A stretch of DNA of 64,000 bases from Treponema sp. OMZ 790. Lineage in GTDB: Bacteria > Spirochaetota > Spirochaetia > Treponematales > Treponemataceae. Each line of letters opens with the position of its first letter. Position 1 is the stretch's first letter. The stretch spans positions 930,001 through 994,000 of the forward strand of contig NZ_CP051201.1 in NCBI RefSeq assembly GCF_024181285.1. Direction: 5' to 3'. Positions 41,834-47,820 of the stretch are shown here, one piece after another. The notes under the pieces were generated by a model. The model made no database searches, was not told the DNA's origin, and saw nothing but the letters and a program-made list of their open reading frames with translations. A program made the translations under genes and the position numbers.

Positions 41834-42301
41834 ATGGGAATTTATGATTATACTGTTAAAGACAGTTTTGGGAATGACTTTTCTTTTAAAGACTACAAAG
41901 ATTATGTCATTTTAGTCGTGAATACGGCTTGCGAGTGAGGTCTTACCCCTCACTTCCAAGGTTTGGAAGCATTGTACAAAGAATACAAGGATAAGAAATT
42001 CCTTGTTGCAGCCTTTCCATGTAATCAGTTCGGAGGGCAGGACCCCGGAACAAACGAAGAAATAAGGAATTTTGCTCAAAGCAAGTACGGGGTTTCTTTC
42101 CCCATAATGGCAAAGATTGAAGTTAACGGTGAAAATACCGAACCTCTTTTTTCTTTTTTGAAAAAAGCTTCTAACGGTGAAGACATCAAATGGAATTTTG
42201 CCAAATTCTTAGTCGATAAAACGGGAGAAAAAGTCACAGCTTATGCACCGACTGTTGCTCCTGAAGACTTAAAAAAAGATATCGAAAAACTTTTGAAATA
42301 A
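41834..42301 (+). CDS. glutathione peroxidase, selenocysteine-containing (in-frame TGA)
   Basis: ATG 41834 with AAGGAG upstream opens a frame whose codon 35 is TGA (41936-41938) in the context NTACE-U-GLTPHFQGLE, the place of the catalytic Cys/Sec in glutathione peroxidases. The same frame then continues to 42301, giving 155 residues. The rest of the catalytic tetrad is present: Gln69 in NQFGGQDPG, and Trp120 and Asn121 in IKWNF. A hairpin 15 bases after the TGA fits a bacterial SECIS. The enzyme reduces peroxides; the small size fits the monomeric GPx4-like type, which often uses thioredoxin. An annotation starting after the TGA would lose the active site. Confidence 0.92.
41953..41969 (+). 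promoter_or_regulatory. bacterial SECIS-like hairpin
   Basis: CTTCCAA-GGT-TTGGAAG is a perfect 7-bp stem with a 3-base loop starting with G, lying within the coding sequence. The loop is about 22 bases after the TGA, inside the distance known for SelB-recognised bacterial SECIS elements. Confidence 0.82.
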
Positions 42302-42373: not shown

Positions 42374-42718
42374 ATGATAATAAACAAAAATGAAGTGCCG
42401 AAAAAAGTTAAACCCAATCTCCGCGGCGGTAACGGTGAGATAAGCGTAATAGAATTTTTAAGTGTCAGATCGGTCAAAAACTGCCGTATGTTTTCCGAAA
42501 TGACTGTTCCGGTTGGAGCAAGTATAGGAGAGCACGTGCATACAGGTGAAACCGAAATCTACATTATCCACGAAGGCAAAGGTCTTGTTACGGATATGGG
42601 TGAAAAGCAGGAAGTCGGTCCCGGCGATGTAGTAATTACCGAGGATAATCAACTTCACAGTCTTGAAAATACAGGTGCTGTTCCCATGGTGTTAACAACT
42701 CTTGTAATAACGCATTAA
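42374..42718 (+). CDS. cupin-domain protein
   Basis: This 114-residue single cupin barrel has metal-site motif 1 GASIGEHVHTGETEIYIIHEG (HxH...E) and motif 2 GDVVITEDNQLHSLENTG. These folds bind a metal and small ligands, and the substrate is unknown. GAGGTG precedes the ATG. It has its own promoter and precedes the redox operon by about 100 bp. Confidence 0.88.
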   Translation: MIINKNEVPKKVKPNLRGGNGEISVIEFLSVRSVKNCRMFSEMTVPVGASIGEHVHTGETEIYIIHEGKGLVTDMGEKQEVGPGDVVITEDNQLHSLENTGAVPMVLTTLVITH

Positions 42719-42821: not shown

Positions 42822-43655
42822 ATGAACGCAAAAAAAAATAAAGCTTATCTCAATTGGTTTGTTTTCACTGTGCTTTTAACCTGTGCTACATTTTTAACCT
42901 CATTTTTTCCGTTGTGGGCAAATGTTCCTATCAACATTATCGCTCCTATTGTCGTGCTGTTTGCATGCAAAATGGTAATGTTTGAGCGGCTAAAACTTTC
43001 AACCCTCATCATAATGAGGACTCTTATCGTTTTGGTTTTATTTAACCTTATGAACGGAGACTTTTTTGTTAAACTTGTTCTAATTTTTTTGGTTATCAAT
43101 ATTTTGGAAGCAACTTTTACAGATTTATTAAAAAATAAACAACCGTATAATTTTGTTACCGGTCTTGTTCTTGCCGCTTCCGTTTTCTGTCTTGCAGGTT
43201 CTTGGCTGCCTGAATATATGGGCCCTCTTACCGGTATTTATAAGGCTGAAGCAGGAGTTTTCGGAGAAGGACTTTTTGCTTCTAAAACCGTTTTTACGGT
43301 AGGAACCGTGTCTTGGATTTTGGCCTATACTCTTTGGAATTGGCTCTTTGTAATCGGAGAATTCGGACCTTCCGTTGCTCTTGAACATGTAGGCATTCTC
43401 CTAATGCCTCTTTTAGGAATATGTATCACCGGCACTCCCGGTTTTTGGCTCGTATTCCGTGCAAACTCTCTGACCACAGGAGGAGTTTTTCAAATCTCGT
43501 GTAAAAATTTTGTTGAAAACGAATTTAAACATGAGTCAATGATAAGACTTTGCGAAAAAATAAAAACCTCAAAGTTGCAGTGTATTTTAATGATTGTGAA
43601 CTTAATATTAATGGCTGTTCCGATTGTTATGTTCTTTACGGGTAAGGGATTTTAA
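42822..43655 (+). CDS. DUF5692-like membrane protein, first
   Basis: This 277-residue protein has about eight membrane helices (LNWFVFTVLLTCATFLTSFFP, IAPIVVLFACKMVMF, IIMRTLIVLVLFNLM, FFVKLVLIFLVINILEATF and others). The markers VINILEATFTDL and AYTLWNWLFV recur in the second membrane protein of this operon (VINILEAVYADI, AYDLWNISYC), so the two are related. I associate them with DUF5692, of unknown function. AAGGAG precedes ATG 42822. It is the first gene of a probable five-gene redox operon. Confidence 0.72.
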   Translation: MNAKKNKAYLNWFVFTVLLTCATFLTSFFPLWANVPINIIAPIVVLFACKMVMFERLKLSTLIIMRTLIVLVLFNLMNGDFFVKLVLIFLVINILEATFTDLLKNKQPYNFVTGLVLAASVFCLAGSWLPEYMGPLTGIYKAEAGVFGEGLFASKTVFTVGTVSWILAYTLWNWLFVIGEFGPSVALEHVGILLMPLLGICITGTPGFWLVFRANSLTTGGVFQISCKNFVENEFKHESMIRLCEKIKTSKLQCILMIVNLILMAVPIVMFFTGKGF

Positions 43656-43661
43656 GATTTT

Positions 43662-45203
43662 ATGGAAAATTATGATGTCGTTATTATAGGTGCCGGAAAC
43701 GGAGGGCTTGCATCTGCTGCAACTCTTTCTCAAGCCGGAAAAAAAGTATGCGTGTTGGAAAAGCACAATATCCCGGGCGGATGCGGTACAAGCTTTTGCC
43801 GAGGCCGTTTTGAATTTGAGGTGGCCTTACACCAGCTGAGTTCTATGGGAACAAAGGAAAATCCCGGCCCGCTTCGCAAGCAATTCAGACGCTACGGAAT
43901 CGAAGATAAAATCGAATGGATTCCTATCGAGTCCTTGTACAAAATCAATTTGCCTGATGGGCGAGGGATTACTCTTCCTGCCGATAAGGAAGAAGTTCAA
44001 AAAAAACTGATTAAAGAATTTCCGGCAGAAGCGGAAAACATAAAAAGGTATTACCAAACCGTTTATAAGTTCAATGAAGAGATAAATTCTTTTAGGGCAA
44101 AAAGTGCGGGCTCTAAAGGAGAACCTTCGAGGCTGAAAAAATGGCTTACCAAAACATTATTTCCTTCCGTATATCCTACCTTGACAAAGTATGCCGTACG
44201 AAGTACGCAGGATGTTCTTGACGAGTTTTTTAAAGATAAGGCTCTGCAATTATGCCTTTCCGCCTATTGGTGTTTTATGGGAGTCGCTCCCGAAAACTTT
44301 CCTTTCACGATTCTTGCAATGTGTACTTATATTTACACAGAGGATAAGCCCTTTTATGTAAGAGGCGGTTCTCAAGTTATAAGTCAGGCCCTTACCGAAA
44401 TGATTCGGGAAAACGGCGGAACCATTTTATTTAATAGAAAAGTTGAACGTATTATTATTGAAAACGGAAAAGCTTGCGGTGTTATCGATGATGAAGGACA
44501 GGAGTTTAGAGCAAAGAAGATAATATCCAATATTTCGCCGACTCAAACCTATGCAAAACTTTTGCAAAAGGAAGAGCTTCCCGATTCAGTCCGCTCGTAT
44601 TTTAAAAGTTATAAGCCGGGTATTTCCGCTTTAACTTGTTTTATCGGACTGGACTGTCCGCCGGAAACGATAGGTTTTACCGATTCTTTTAATTTGACCT
44701 ATGCGAGTTTGGATGCAAATGAAGATTTTAAAAATGCCTATAAGCTTGATACTTCAATCGATCCGATTATTTCTACATGTTACACAGTAGATGATCCTAA
44801 AGTTTCACCTCCGGGTACAAGTATAATCACTGCCGGAACTCTTAAATATTCTGAAGCCTGGGAAAAACTTTCGCCTGAAGAATATCATCAAAAAAAATAT
44901 GAACTTGCTTCGACGATAATTGACAGGCTTGAAAAACGCTTTCCCGGTTTACGAAGCCATATCGAAGAAATAGAAGTTGCAACTCCCTTAACCCATATGC
45001 GGTATCTTGGACATCCTTCCGGGGCTATTTATGGATATGAACAAGATTTACGCTCTTCGGTATTTTTCTTTCCTGCAACCGATAATGCTATTCCTAATTT
45101 GGTTTTTGCAAGCGGATGGGTAAATACCTGCGGTTTCGGCCCCAATTATATGTTCGCCGATAGGCTTGCATCGTCATTATTAAAGGAGATGGACAATGAG
45201 TGA
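43662..45203 (+). CDS. phytoene-desaturase / retinol-saturase-like FAD oxidoreductase
   Basis: This 513-residue flavoprotein of the COG1233 group has an N-terminal dinucleotide fold VVIIGAGNGGLASAATLSQAGKKV, then LEKHNIPGGCGTSFCRGRFEFEVALHQLSSMG, a FYVRGGSQVISQALTEMI segment, RKVERIIIENGKACGVID and a C-terminal FAD part ASGWVNTCGFGPNYMFADRLA. Members desaturate carotenoids or saturate polyene chains such as retinol. No other carotenoid genes are seen here, so the substrate is unknown; an isoprenoid or fatty chain in the membrane is plausible. It overlaps the reductase gene by 8 bp. Confidence 0.85.
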   Translation: MENYDVVIIGAGNGGLASAATLSQAGKKVCVLEKHNIPGGCGTSFCRGRFEFEVALHQLSSMGTKENPGPLRKQFRRYGIEDKIEWIPIESLYKINLPDGRGITLPADKEEVQKKLIKEFPAEAENIKRYYQTVYKFNEEINSFRAKSAGSKGEPSRLKKWLTKTLFPSVYPTLTKYAVRSTQDVLDEFFKDKALQLCLSAYWCFMGVAPENFPFTILAMCTYIYTEDKPFYVRGGSQVISQALTEMIRENGGTILFNRKVERIIIENGKACGVIDDEGQEFRAKKIISNISPTQTYAKLLQKEELPDSVRSYFKSYKPGISALTCFIGLDCPPETIGFTDSFNLTYASLDANEDFKNAYKLDTSIDPIISTCYTVDDPKVSPPGTSIITAGTLKYSEAWEKLSPEEYHQKKYELASTIIDRLEKRFPGLRSHIEEIEVATPLTHMRYLGHPSGAIYGYEQDLRSSVFFFPATDNAIPNLVFASGWVNTCGFGPNYMFADRLASSLLKEMDNE

Positions 45204-46359
45204 TCTTAAAACTCTTATTATAAGCCGTATGGAAAACGGAGCAAATATATTAAACGAATTGGCTGTTTCAAAAAAAATAGGGAAGGATATTACGGTTGAT
45301 GCATCGGCTGTCGAGAAAAAAATTAACCAGTATCATCCCAATATTATGAAACTCATAGTTTCCGAAACCGAAAATATCGGCAATTATGCAAAAAAAATTC
45401 GCTTTGTAAGTGAAACAGGCTTTTTACCGATTTTTGAAGCCGGTCAGTACATAAACCTTTTTGTTCAAATTGAGGGGGTAAGAACTTCAAGACCTTACAG
45501 CCTTTCTTCTTCTCCAAAAGAACGCAGCTATTTTGAAATTATTGTTGCAAGACAAGAAAAAGGTTTTGTTTCCGATTATCTGATTGATAATGTAAAGCCG
45601 GGAGACAGATTTGAAGCTAACGGCCCTGCCGGAGTGTTTCATTTTAATCCGGTATTTCATCATAAAAGACAAGTTTTTTTGGCCGGAGGAAGCGGTATTA
45701 CTCCATTCCTTTCAATGAGCCGGGAAATACTTCATGCCGGTTTGGATCGAGAGGTATTCCTTATTTATGGAACTCGAAACGAAGAGCTTGCCATAAATCA
45801 TGAGGAGTTGACCCATCTTTCCGCCGAGTTTAAAAATTTTCATTATTCTTTGGTTGTATCGAATGACCCTGAATGCAAAAAATACCGTACAGGTTTTATC
45901 GATTCCGAATGTATAAAGGCTCTTGTTCCTGATTATAAAAATGCTACCTACTATATCTGCGGCCCCGAAATTATGAACCAATTTTGCAGCAAGGCTTTAA
46001 CCGAAATAGGTATTTTGCCTAAGCACATAAGACGGGAAATGTTCGGCGCAAGACAAGACATTCAAAGCGAGCCCGGATGGCCCCAAAACTTAAGCGGAAA
46101 AGAAACCTTCACTATAAAGATCGGCGATAAAAAAATTCCTGCCTTATCCGGCGAAAGCGTTCTTACTGCCTTGGAGCGCTCGGGTATCAGAATGAATGTA
46201 TGCTGCAGAAGCGGTGAATGCAGTTTGTGCAGAATCCGTTTGGTTTCGGGAACCGTTTTTACGGCCCGCGGAGTTTTAAGCCGATATGCGGATGAACTTT
46301 TTAATTATATCCATTCATGCAAGGTTTATCCCACAAGCAACTTGGAAATTATTTTGTAA
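45196..46359 (+). CDS. ferredoxin-NAD(P)H reductase with C-terminal [2Fe-2S] domain
   Basis: This 387-residue electron-transfer protein has an N-terminal 60-residue helical extension, an FAD-binding barrel with RPYSLSSSP (about 97-105), an NAD(P) domain with LAGGSGITPFLSM and YICGPEIMNQF, and a plant-type ferredoxin domain at the end: CRSGECSLC plus a later HSC gives four ligands. The order FAD-NAD-2Fe-2S matches class IA/IB oxygenase reductases. In this anaerobe-like genome it more likely passes NAD(P)H electrons to the overlapping flavoprotein. An operon partnership is inferred from the 8-bp overlap. Confidence 0.88.
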   Translation: MSDLKTLIISRMENGANILNELAVSKKIGKDITVDASAVEKKINQYHPNIMKLIVSETENIGNYAKKIRFVSETGFLPIFEAGQYINLFVQIEGVRTSRPYSLSSSPKERSYFEIIVARQEKGFVSDYLIDNVKPGDRFEANGPAGVFHFNPVFHHKRQVFLAGGSGITPFLSMSREILHAGLDREVFLIYGTRNEELAINHEELTHLSAEFKNFHYSLVVSNDPECKKYRTGFIDSECIKALVPDYKNATYYICGPEIMNQFCSKALTEIGILPKHIRREMFGARQDIQSEPGWPQNLSGKETFTIKIGDKKIPALSGESVLTALERSGIRMNVCCRSGECSLCRIRLVSGTVFTARGVLSRYADELFNYIHSCKVYPTSNLEIIL

Positions 46360-46380
46360 TTTTATTTATGGAGGAATAAG

Positions 46381-47307
46381 ATGTTTTTCTTTACAGGTTA
46401 TACTTTAAAGACTTTACTTGGATTTGTCTTTTTACTGGTTATGCTCATAGGGCTTAATGAATTGACGAGAAGGAGCAAGTGGATTTCGATTATCTTTTAT
46501 GCCGCTTTACCGATTGTTCTTTCTATCTTTGTTTGGCCTCTTACAACTGCAAACGGAGGTTCAGGCGCAACTTGGTTTGCATGGGTAAAAACTTATTCGG
46601 CTTTGGCCGGTGTCATAGGTTTTATGCTTTTGCGCTATGTAAAAAAACTTGAAACAAATAAGTTTATGCTTACCTTTCCCATGCTGATTTTGGTTATCAA
46701 TATTTTGGAAGCTGTTTATGCCGACATTGAATGTTATTCAATGCATGGCGTAGTACGCGGAGGACTTTTGATGGAAGGAGGTCCTTGGAATATTATAAAT
46801 GCTATTGCAGGTATCTTCCTTTGTCTTTCTCTTTCCGGCTGGCTAAAAATAAAGATAAGCAATACAAAATCACGGGATATGATTTGGGCCGATCAATTAT
46901 GGTTTTGGATTATTGCATACGATTTATGGAATATTTCTTATTGCTATAACTGTATTTCGAACCGCTCTTTTTATGCGGGATTTACATTGATAGTTTCTTG
47001 TACGGTTGCGGAATTTTTCTTCCGAAAAGGTGCATGGCTTCAGCATAGGGCTCAAACTCTTGCTATCTTTGCAATGTTCTCTCTTACCGCCAATTATGCT
47101 TCATATACGGATTGGTTCGGTATTACCTCAACTCAAGCCCCGGCTCCTAAAACCGTATTGGCTATTGCTGCTTTGATAGTAAATGTTGCCGTATTTGCTT
47201 ACGAACTGTATATTATAAGCAAAACAAAGCGTAATCCGCTTAAAGAAGAAGTTTTTACCGATTTAAAATCATACAAGGCTATACTTGCAGAAAATAAATT
47301 GGTATAA
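46381..47307 (+). CDS. DUF5692-like membrane protein, second
   Basis: This 308-residue protein has about nine membrane helices, beginning LKTLLGFVFLLVMLIGLNEL. Shared markers with the first membrane protein are VINILEAVYADI and AYDLWN; it adds EGGPWNIINAIAGIFLCLSL and YNCISNRSFYAG. GGAGG lies before ATG 46381. It bracketed the two redox enzymes with a related protein on each side, hinting at a membrane complex or a lipid-substrate carrier. The function is unknown. Confidence 0.72.
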   Translation: MFFFTGYTLKTLLGFVFLLVMLIGLNELTRRSKWISIIFYAALPIVLSIFVWPLTTANGGSGATWFAWVKTYSALAGVIGFMLLRYVKKLETNKFMLTFPMLILVINILEAVYADIECYSMHGVVRGGLLMEGGPWNIINAIAGIFLCLSLSGWLKIKISNTKSRDMIWADQLWFWIIAYDLWNISYCYNCISNRSFYAGFTLIVSCTVAEFFFRKGAWLQHRAQTLAIFAMFSLTANYASYTDWFGITSTQAPAPKTVLAIAALIVNVAVFAYELYIISKTKRNPLKEEVFTDLKSYKAILAENKLV

Positions 47308-47345
47308 TTCTATATTCGATATATTTTTATATATGGAGGTTTATT

Positions 47346-47762
47346 ATGGCAAACGAATTTAAGGCAAAAGCCGAAATCGATTTGGGCGAAGGTTTTAAAG
47401 TTGAATGTGAGGCATCCGGCAAAAAGATTATTGCAGATGAACCTGTCAGTTTCGGCGGAACCGATTTGGGTATGAACCCGATCGAAGTTCTTTTGAGCGG
47501 CCTTGGGGCTTGCAAGTGCGTTATTTCGAAAATGCTCGCAAAGAAAAAAGGCCTTAAACTGGATTATTTGGCTGTCGAATGTATAGGTTCTTTCAGTTCA
47601 GGAAAGGTAGGACTTTCCGATATTGAAACAATCTATCATATTAAGTCCGATGCTTCCGATGAGGAGCTTGAAAAGTTTATGACCTTGGTTGACAATAATT
47701 GTCCGGTAAACGACACACTCAAAAATCCGCTCCCCATAACTCATAAACTTATTAGAGCTTAA
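47346..47762 (+). CDS. OsmC/Ohr-family protein
   Basis: This 138-residue cytosolic protein has the family's first cysteine in PIEVLLSGLGACKCVISKML and the second in DNNCPVNDTLKNPL. OsmC/Ohr proteins reduce organic and lipid hydroperoxides, though many YhfA-like members lack tested activity. ATGGAGG precedes ATG 47346. As last gene of the redox operon it would fit protection of membrane lipids (inference). Confidence 0.87.
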   Translation: MANEFKAKAEIDLGEGFKVECEASGKKIIADEPVSFGGTDLGMNPIEVLLSGLGACKCVISKMLAKKKGLKLDYLAVECIGSFSSGKVGLSDIETIYHIKSDASDEELEKFMTLVDNNCPVNDTLKNPLPITHKLIRA

Positions 47763-47787: not shown

Positions 47788-47820
47788 AAAGATACGGATT
47801 TATTTAATCCGTATCTTTTT
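47788..47820. terminator. bidirectional terminator between OsmC gene and pcnB
   Basis: AAGATACGGATT and AATCCGTATCTT pair across TATTT, with T on one side and A on the other. The hairpin includes the pcnB stop codon. Confidence 0.82.

Follow-up and report, generated by a model that had tools for sequence, protein, structure and literature searches.

We analyzed a 64,000-nucleotide stretch of the Treponema sp. OMZ 790 genome, referred to here as the window. The five tightly packed genes described in the original prediction are all present, each on the + strand, and the stop of sat and the start of red overlap by exactly 8 bp, as predicted. The features of the locus are as follows.

42822..43655, + strand: tmA, a 277-amino acid membrane protein and divergent DUF5692 paralogue
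43662..45203, + strand: sat, a 513-amino acid FAD flavoprotein with a CrtI/CrtD fold
43689..43706, + strand: FAD dinucleotide-binding motif of Sat (GAGNGG, residues 10–15)
45196..45203, + strand: overlap of sat stop and red start (exactly 8 bp)
45196..46359, + strand: red, a 387-amino acid NAD(P)H reductase with FAD_binding_6, NAD_binding_1, and C-terminal Fer2 domains
46204..46320, + strand: plant-type [2Fe-2S] ligands of Red (Cys337, Cys342, Cys345, and Cys375)
46381..47307, + strand: tmB, a 308-amino acid DUF5692 multi-span membrane protein
47346..47762, + strand: osmC, an OsmC-family gene (PF02566 match) outside the conserved unit
47788..47818, + strand: terminator-like hairpin 3' of osmC (13 pairs and a T tail)

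The hairpin trailing osmC ranks first among the 11 sites listed (6.3 expected).

Domain profiles identify Sat as an amine-oxidase/CrtI-type flavoprotein, which we take to be of the COG1233 type. Glycines G10, G12, and G15 are invariant in all 25 rows of sat and the more distant sat2, including the sat row of locus L040, which was retained even with its extension beyond the stop codon. The neighboring gene encodes a [2Fe-2S] reductase, in agreement with the original prediction. Red has complete FAD, NAD, and [2Fe-2S] motifs and on these grounds is a ferredoxin-type NAD(P)H reductase; its [2Fe-2S] cysteines (C-x4-C-x2-C...C) are invariant in 24 of 24 rows of red and red2. In the 17 other loci measured, sat and red are spaced by –4 to +2 bp, as judged from script-chosen starts. 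The sat of L025 was skipped in this analysis (in-frame stops), and there is no tmA row for L025 (two pieces) or for L015 and L027 (contig ends). The more distant sat2-red2 pairs occur in 13 spirochaete genomes, without DUF5692 and without IsrA, an oxidoreductase of the isoprene-reductase family.

The genes flanking this pair encode two related multi-span proteins, both belonging to DUF5692 (PF18948, cut-off 27 bits). TmB scores 368.9 bits and TmA passes narrowly at 31.3 bits, and their kinship is supported by a single hhalign comparison of profiles built from 16 TmA and 41 TmB sequences (probability 96%, E 4.9e-9). A simple hydropathy scan finds eight hydrophobic segments in TmA and seven in TmB. 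Long helices predominate in the AlphaFold2 model of TmB (pLDDT 89.8), and ten of its residues are invariant across 65 rows (N26, R30, K70, N107, N137, N140, D171, N184, R223, and N268). Five near-duplicate or short rows were omitted from the DUF5692 tree, in which L018, L027, and L033 were given their sat-linked label by hand.

The conserved unit consists of four genes, tmA-sat-red-tmB, rather than five. This set is common to spirochaetes and gut clostridia. The original prediction turned on whether the genes co-occur elsewhere, and they do: sat, red, and tmB are found together in 19 of 37 loci, and tmA in 17 of these, the other two being truncated by contig ends. Because the search for these 37 loci used short stretches of the TmB protein encoded in the window, the fraction is not a population estimate. 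The clustering of sat, red, and tmB exceeds chance. One close relative lacks tmA save for its final codons. All four genes are under purifying selection, with dN/dS of 0.02–0.06 against close relatives. OsmC, which had been proposed as the fifth member, must be set apart from this unit. It adjoins sat-red in none of the 19 sat loci and, like the glutathione peroxidase gene gpx, has no match in any of the 37 loci. In two close relatives osmC (82–83% identical) lies 2.1–2.3 kb from tmB, with a gene of 676–678 amino acids between them.

The key lead to function is the co-occurrence of DUF5692 with IsrA-type oxidoreductases. Among 198 Spirochaetota genomes, 18 have DUF5692, 13 have IsrA, and 11 have both (p 7e-12, Fisher, kinship ignored); the corresponding numbers among 341 Clostridia genomes are 22, 28, and 18 (p 2e-19, Fisher, kinship ignored). 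DUF5692 has been described as a frequent neighbor of IsrA homologues (0.4; PMC10134865). The window itself has no tblastn match to an IsrA-like 900-amino acid oxidoreductase with HypA/HypB, and its operon is not an isr operon. IsrA and HypA lie beside the sat operon in 4 of the 19 sat loci, with HypB in two of these four (domains checked in L024), and isrA-hypA-hypB occurs elsewhere in the genome in both near-identical Treponema-like genomes. Full-length IsrA is missing from two of seven sat genomes, whose assemblies may be incomplete. Sat and IsrA loci are flanked alike by GntR/FCD regulators (35–46% identity between locus types) and TetR regulators (30–42%). In the random Clostridia sample, neighborhoods were fetched for 20 of the 22 DUF5692 genomes (G003 and G316 were left out), and none of the 20 holds sat, making sat a minority partner of DUF5692.

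Several DUF5692 neighborhoods point to unsaturated fatty acids. Homologues of 2b9w, titled in the PDB as the fatty-acid isomerase of P. acnes that produces conjugated linoleic acid (CLA), lie 0.4–5.2 kb from DUF5692 in four loci (L037, L143, L145, and L146), none of them with sat. Such homologues occur in 6 of 341 Clostridia genomes, of which five have IsrA (1.1–2.1 kb away in four) and four have DUF5692; the query came from one of the six (G417), and three were first noticed through DUF5692. Oleate hydratase is found near IsrA homologues in A. woodii and A. fimetarium (PMC10134865). Its association with DUF5692 in Clostridia is weak (7 of 22, p 0.006, Fisher, kinship ignored), as tabulated from 38 genomes picked by hand for their strong oleate hydratase matches (E < 1e-80; 61 of 341 genomes match at E 0.001, and 48 are over the cut-off). 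Neither isomerase nor oleate hydratase occurs near any sat locus examined, and oleate hydratase is absent from both near-identical genomes. The fatty-acid link of sat is thus second-order, by way of DUF5692 and IsrA. The isomerase homologues near DUF5692, together with the oleate hydratase near Acetobacterium IsrA homologues, favor unsaturated fatty acids over isoprenoids or carotenoids. Fatty-acid hydrogenation by a rumen Treponema is also cited in the literature.

A role of the operon in C=C redox chemistry is fairly well supported. We tentatively favor, at just under even chances, the reading that the products of tmA-sat-red-tmB work on the C=C bonds of a lipid dissolved in the membrane, with NAD(P)H as the driver and no need for O2. 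Unsaturated fatty acids, either free or part of the membrane, are the most likely substrate, and the reaction would be of the biohydrogenation type. The choice of fatty acids as substrate, and that between reduction and isomerization, are reached at second hand. Counting against this reading are the sat2-red2 pairs that manage without DUF5692 and IsrA, the loss of tmA in a close relative, and the minority place of sat among DUF5692 neighborhoods. Red would accept hydride from NAD(P)H at its FAD, and its C-terminal [2Fe-2S] domain would relay the electrons one at a time to the Sat FAD, as the domains of Red and the strict gene pairing suggest. Reduced Sat would then saturate a lipid double bond, or else isomerize it in the manner of carotenoid isomerase, which works with reduced FAD. 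The TmA/TmB pair, with its conserved asparagine- and charge-rich core, may present the lipid to Sat. The Sat-Red system would operate beside the separate IsrA-HypA-HypB module carried by most DUF5692 genomes, whose founding member is a putative conjugated-diene (isoprene) reductase (PMC10134865). An A. wieringae strain reduced conjugated dienes and not ethene, propene, or fumarate. The likely gain would be disposal of toxic polyunsaturated fatty acids from host or diet, along with an electron sink.

Sat might instead be a fatty-acid isomerase, its FAD kept reduced by Red, that moves or flips double bonds to supply conjugated dienes to IsrA and replaces the isomerase of other DUF5692/IsrA loci. 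We consider this unlikely: the NAD(P)H reductase with which Sat is strictly paired is more than a redox-neutral enzyme would require, and the two sat genomes without full-length IsrA, if complete, also argue against it. The original prediction had envisaged NAD(P)H-driven reduction or desaturation of a polyene or isoprenoid within the membrane. Its conserved membrane protein, flavoprotein, and reductase operon stands, and NAD(P)H-driven C=C chemistry is probable. The isomerase and oleate hydratase neighbors shift the likely substrate to unsaturated fatty acids. The energetics (redox potentials) make desaturation unlikely for an anaerobe equipped with a reductase of the NAD(P)H type. Saturation of an isoprenoid or polyprenyl lipid, such as a quinone tail, polyprenol, or retinoid-like host lipid, appears quite improbable. 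It accords with the membership of Sat in the carotenoid-enzyme superfamily, the link of A. wieringae IsrA to isoprene, and an undecaprenyl-phosphate-translocase-like neighbor at one DUF5692/IsrA locus (L099). Against it, the phytoene/squalene-synthase family (PF00494) is present in only 2 of 12 operon genomes and missing from the other 10, and scanning of neighbors, mostly at non-sat loci, turned up no identified gene for isoprenoid synthesis. The gpx gene upstream of the operon in the window and two relatives, with osmC downstream, could suggest an operon for redox detoxification or oxidative stress in which Red is a peroxide- or O2-linked reductase; the absence of both genes from the 37 loci, and the gene intervening before osmC in two relatives, make this very doubtful. 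It is scarcely credible that Sat desaturates or isomerizes carotenoids by way of an unusual electron carrier, despite its fold and family resemblance. Sat scores far under the curated NCBIfam cut-offs (TIGR02730, 217.5 versus 586.9 bits; TIGR02734, 147.9 versus 238.1 bits), and neither near-identical genome has PF00494 to indicate a carotenoid pathway, consistent with the predicted lack of carotenoid genes.

Extending the favored fatty-acid reading, we offer as a speculation, on balance rather unlikely, that anaerobic biohydrogenation of unsaturated fatty acids has DUF5692 as its missing integral-membrane core, and that this protein may even be the membrane-bound linoleate isomerase. Two interchangeable reductases, IsrA-HypAB and the newly recognized Sat-Red, would serve it. 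If so, IsrA-clade enzymes would be fatty-acid conjugated-diene reductases generally, with isoprene reduction a side branch, and DUF5692, found by name in one paper of the open-access library, would gain a function. Biohydrogenation of fatty acids shapes milk fat and meat fat in ruminants, and little is yet known of the genes behind it in anaerobes of the rumen and gut. Three elements together form a directly testable gene set: the conserved cluster, the ties of a DUF to fatty-acid isomerases and the isoprene-reductase family, and the finding that Treponema-like genomes carry both modules.

The enzymology of CRTISO and retinol saturase provides a comparison for Sat, which differs from these enzymes and from CrtI/CrtD desaturases in falling under the curated cut-offs, in having a dedicated [2Fe-2S] reductase, and in the lack of a carotenoid pathway in close genomes. 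The sequence of the Butyrivibrio CLA reductase (cla-r gene) was reportedly described by Fukuda in 2007. This conjugated linoleic acid (rumenate) reductase resembles the proposed system by description, as a membrane-associated, NADH-linked enzyme reducing fatty-acid C=C bonds in an anaerobe (PMC4478896). The P. acnes polyunsaturated fatty-acid isomerase PAI (2b9w) has no useful full-length homology to Sat (best blastp E 0.002 over 36 residues among four PAI homologues) and is missing from the four PDB matches of Sat at E 1e-5; no PAI homologue occurs in the sat loci examined. Finally, the A. wieringae IsrA/Hyp operon (PMC10134865) differs in its catalyst, a 900-amino acid Fe-S/FAD GltD-like protein with Hyp chaperones, none of which is in the window and whose architecture is unlike that of Sat/Red, but shares with the present operon a tie to DUF5692, a frequent neighbor of its homologues, as well as an anaerobic host, the proposed reduction of unfunctionalized C=C bonds, and the same regulator families.

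The five genes tmA, sat, red, tmB and osmC lie on the + strand at 42822–47762, exactly where the original prediction had placed them, and the 8-bp overlap between sat and red was also as described. The proposed relatedness of the two membrane proteins was borne out: TmB is a full-length DUF5692 protein by Pfam match (PF18948), TmA clears the same cut-off by a narrow margin, and profile-against-profile comparison supports their kinship (hhalign 96%). The expected cofactor motifs are present in both Sat, a CrtI/CrtD-fold flavoprotein, and Red, a reductase whose four [2Fe-2S] cysteines are invariant (24 of 24 aligned rows). A terminator-like hairpin lies 3' of osmC. Two genomes of 2.8–2.9 Mb encode a Sat 98% identical to that of the window. 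Neighboring features are as follows.

Window 41834–42301, + strand: gpx (glutathione peroxidase), upstream, whose active-site codon is an in-frame TGA (NTACE-U-GLTPHFQ)
Window 42374–42718, + strand: cupin gene, between gpx and tmA
L095:13689–15719 and L096:13286–15322, loci of the two closest genomes: gene of 676–678 amino acids, trypsin-like in L095, the sole one scanned

Because of its in-frame TGA, the gpx product is probably a selenoprotein; the gpx start in the ORF list is too late. The two closest genomes have neither an ORF nor a match at the place equivalent to the cupin gene.

Co-occurrence of all five genes, as the original prediction would have it, held for four. Among 37 genome loci found with TmB peptides, whose hosts include Lachnospiraceae, other Clostridia, an Erysipelotrichaceae (Holdemania) MAG and spirochaetes, sat and red adjoin tmB in 19, and tmA is also present in 17 of these; in the other two, a contig end falls within sat or just ahead of it. 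The order is tmA-sat-red-tmB in 15 loci and sat-red-tmA-tmB in two, and sat and red are separated by –4 to +2 bp (17 loci measured). No match to osmC was found in any of the 37 loci, and both closest genomes, unlike the window, have the 676–678-amino acid gene between tmB and osmC. The conserved unit is therefore four genes, tmA-sat-red-tmB. With respect to closest relatives, dN/dS is 0.02–0.06 for these four and 0.12–0.14 for osmC. One of the two closest genomes (L096, G029) keeps sat, red and tmB, with tmA gone save its last codons.

Sat occurs in 20 of 198 Spirochaetota genomes at E 1e-80. Seven have at least 65% identity, all with DUF5692; the other 13 (sat2) have 38–44% identity, none with DUF5692, and a Red homologue adjoins sat2 in 11, the remaining two matches reaching contig ends. 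Sat-Red is thus the redox core, and DUF5692 the mark of one clade. Four cysteines (Cys204, 221, 326 and 490) occur in each of 14 Sat rows and are missing from 11 sat2 rows. An NMO-type FMN enzyme follows sat2-red2 in both pairs scanned.

A single open-access paper naming DUF5692 was found, on the putative isoprene reductase IsrA of Acetobacterium wieringae; in the part of it available, DUF5692 is close to IsrA homologues (co-occurrence 0.4, 988 homologues; PMC10134865). With IsrA called at E 1e-110, 198 Spirochaetota include 18 genomes with DUF5692, 13 with IsrA and 11 with both (1.2 expected; p 7e-12, ignoring kinship), and 341 Clostridia include 22, 28 and 18, respectively (1.8 expected; p 2e-19, ignoring kinship). 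IsrA belongs to the DUF5692 gene run in 12 of 20 Clostridia neighborhoods fetched, 11 of the 12 having its partners hypA and hypB; sat is in none of the 20. IsrA also lies within nine of the 37 loci, four of them with sat-red (domains checked in L024). Each of the two near-identical Treponema-like genomes has one isrA-hypA-hypB cluster, distant from sat-red-tmB. IsrA occurs in five of the seven sat genomes, one copy broken, and in none of the 13 sat2 genomes at E 1e-110. Two genomes (G041, G174) have IsrA scoring like the Treponema type and no DUF5692 or sat at the thresholds used, and the sat operon may accordingly be patchy among near relatives. In a spirochaete MAG (L025/L154), tmA (in two pieces), sat (with stops) and isrA are all interrupted, as if both modules had been lost together.

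A DUF5692 tree of 65 proteins places the sat-linked members within a single starred clade of 32, made up of 21 sat-linked, two IsrA-linked and nine with neither; the remaining 33 comprise 20 IsrA-linked and 13 with neither. The window TmB clusters with Lachnospiraceae, which suggests horizontal transfer. Regulators beside both sat and IsrA loci are of the GntR/FCD (35–46% identity between locus types) and TetR (30–42%) families. DUF5692 genes without nearby sat or IsrA were seen beside a DUF1295 protein and, in convergent orientation, beside a flavoenzyme resembling flavocytochrome c/fumarate reductase (L036:6919–7869; L007:9052–10812), possibly further partner reductases. Two MAGs with near-identical gene runs (L017:1463–5911 and L019) have a TetR regulator, an MFS_2 transporter and a DUF6937-DUF6938 protein near DUF5692.

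The tmA-sat-red-tmB unit is a real, conserved four-gene system, and no prior description of it was found in the open-access literature. Electrons would pass from NAD(P)H through FAD and [2Fe-2S] of Red to the FAD of Sat and on to a C=C bond, with TmA and TmB serving in substrate delivery or catalysis; invariant polar residues of DUF5692 (65 rows) are N26, R30, K70, N107, N137, N140, D171, N184, R223 and N268. Reduction is the likely reaction rather than desaturation, because removing hydrogen from an alkyl chain with NAD+ is energetically very unfavorable. Its most probable place is in the anaerobic metabolism of C=C bonds in lipids. Rumen Treponema reportedly carry out fatty-acid hydrogenation, judging from titles in the reference lists of two papers.

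A clue to the substrate comes from flavoproteins of 410–419 amino acids in four DUF5692 neighborhoods, which match PDB 2b9w nearly full length (E 1e-68 for L037, 7e-24 for L143, 3e-62 for L145 and 7e-42 for L146; next best 4e-8 or weaker). This entry is titled 'CLA-producing fatty acid isomerase from P. acnes' (PAI; CLA, conjugated linoleic acid), in agreement with the available part of PMC2885616, where six PAI structures are mentioned. The PAI-like gene is 0.4 kb from DUF5692 in L037 (Paenibacillus glacialis) and about 4–5.2 kb away in the other three, with isrA and hyp genes in between. Only six of 341 Clostridia genomes have PAI-like genes (E 1e-20). Five of these have IsrA (p 1.5e-5) and four DUF5692, one a fragment (p 1.8e-4), both values being flattered because one of the six (G417) supplied the query and DUF5692 had already drawn attention to two others. 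The PAI-like gene is 1.1–2.1 kb from IsrA in four of the six, including 1.4 kb in G502, which had not previously been selected. Oleate hydratase is likewise close to IsrA homologues in A. woodii and A. fimetarium (PMC10134865). For IsrA substrates, the available part of that paper proposes further conjugated hydrocarbons, terpenes for example; fatty acids are not among them there, and the word 'linoleic' is absent from it. An A. wieringae strain reportedly reduces conjugated dienes and leaves ethene, propene and fumarate unreduced. Similarly, Butyrivibrio CLA-R, according to the available part of PMC2654759, does not reduce non-conjugated t11,c15-18:2 and reduces conjugated fatty acids.
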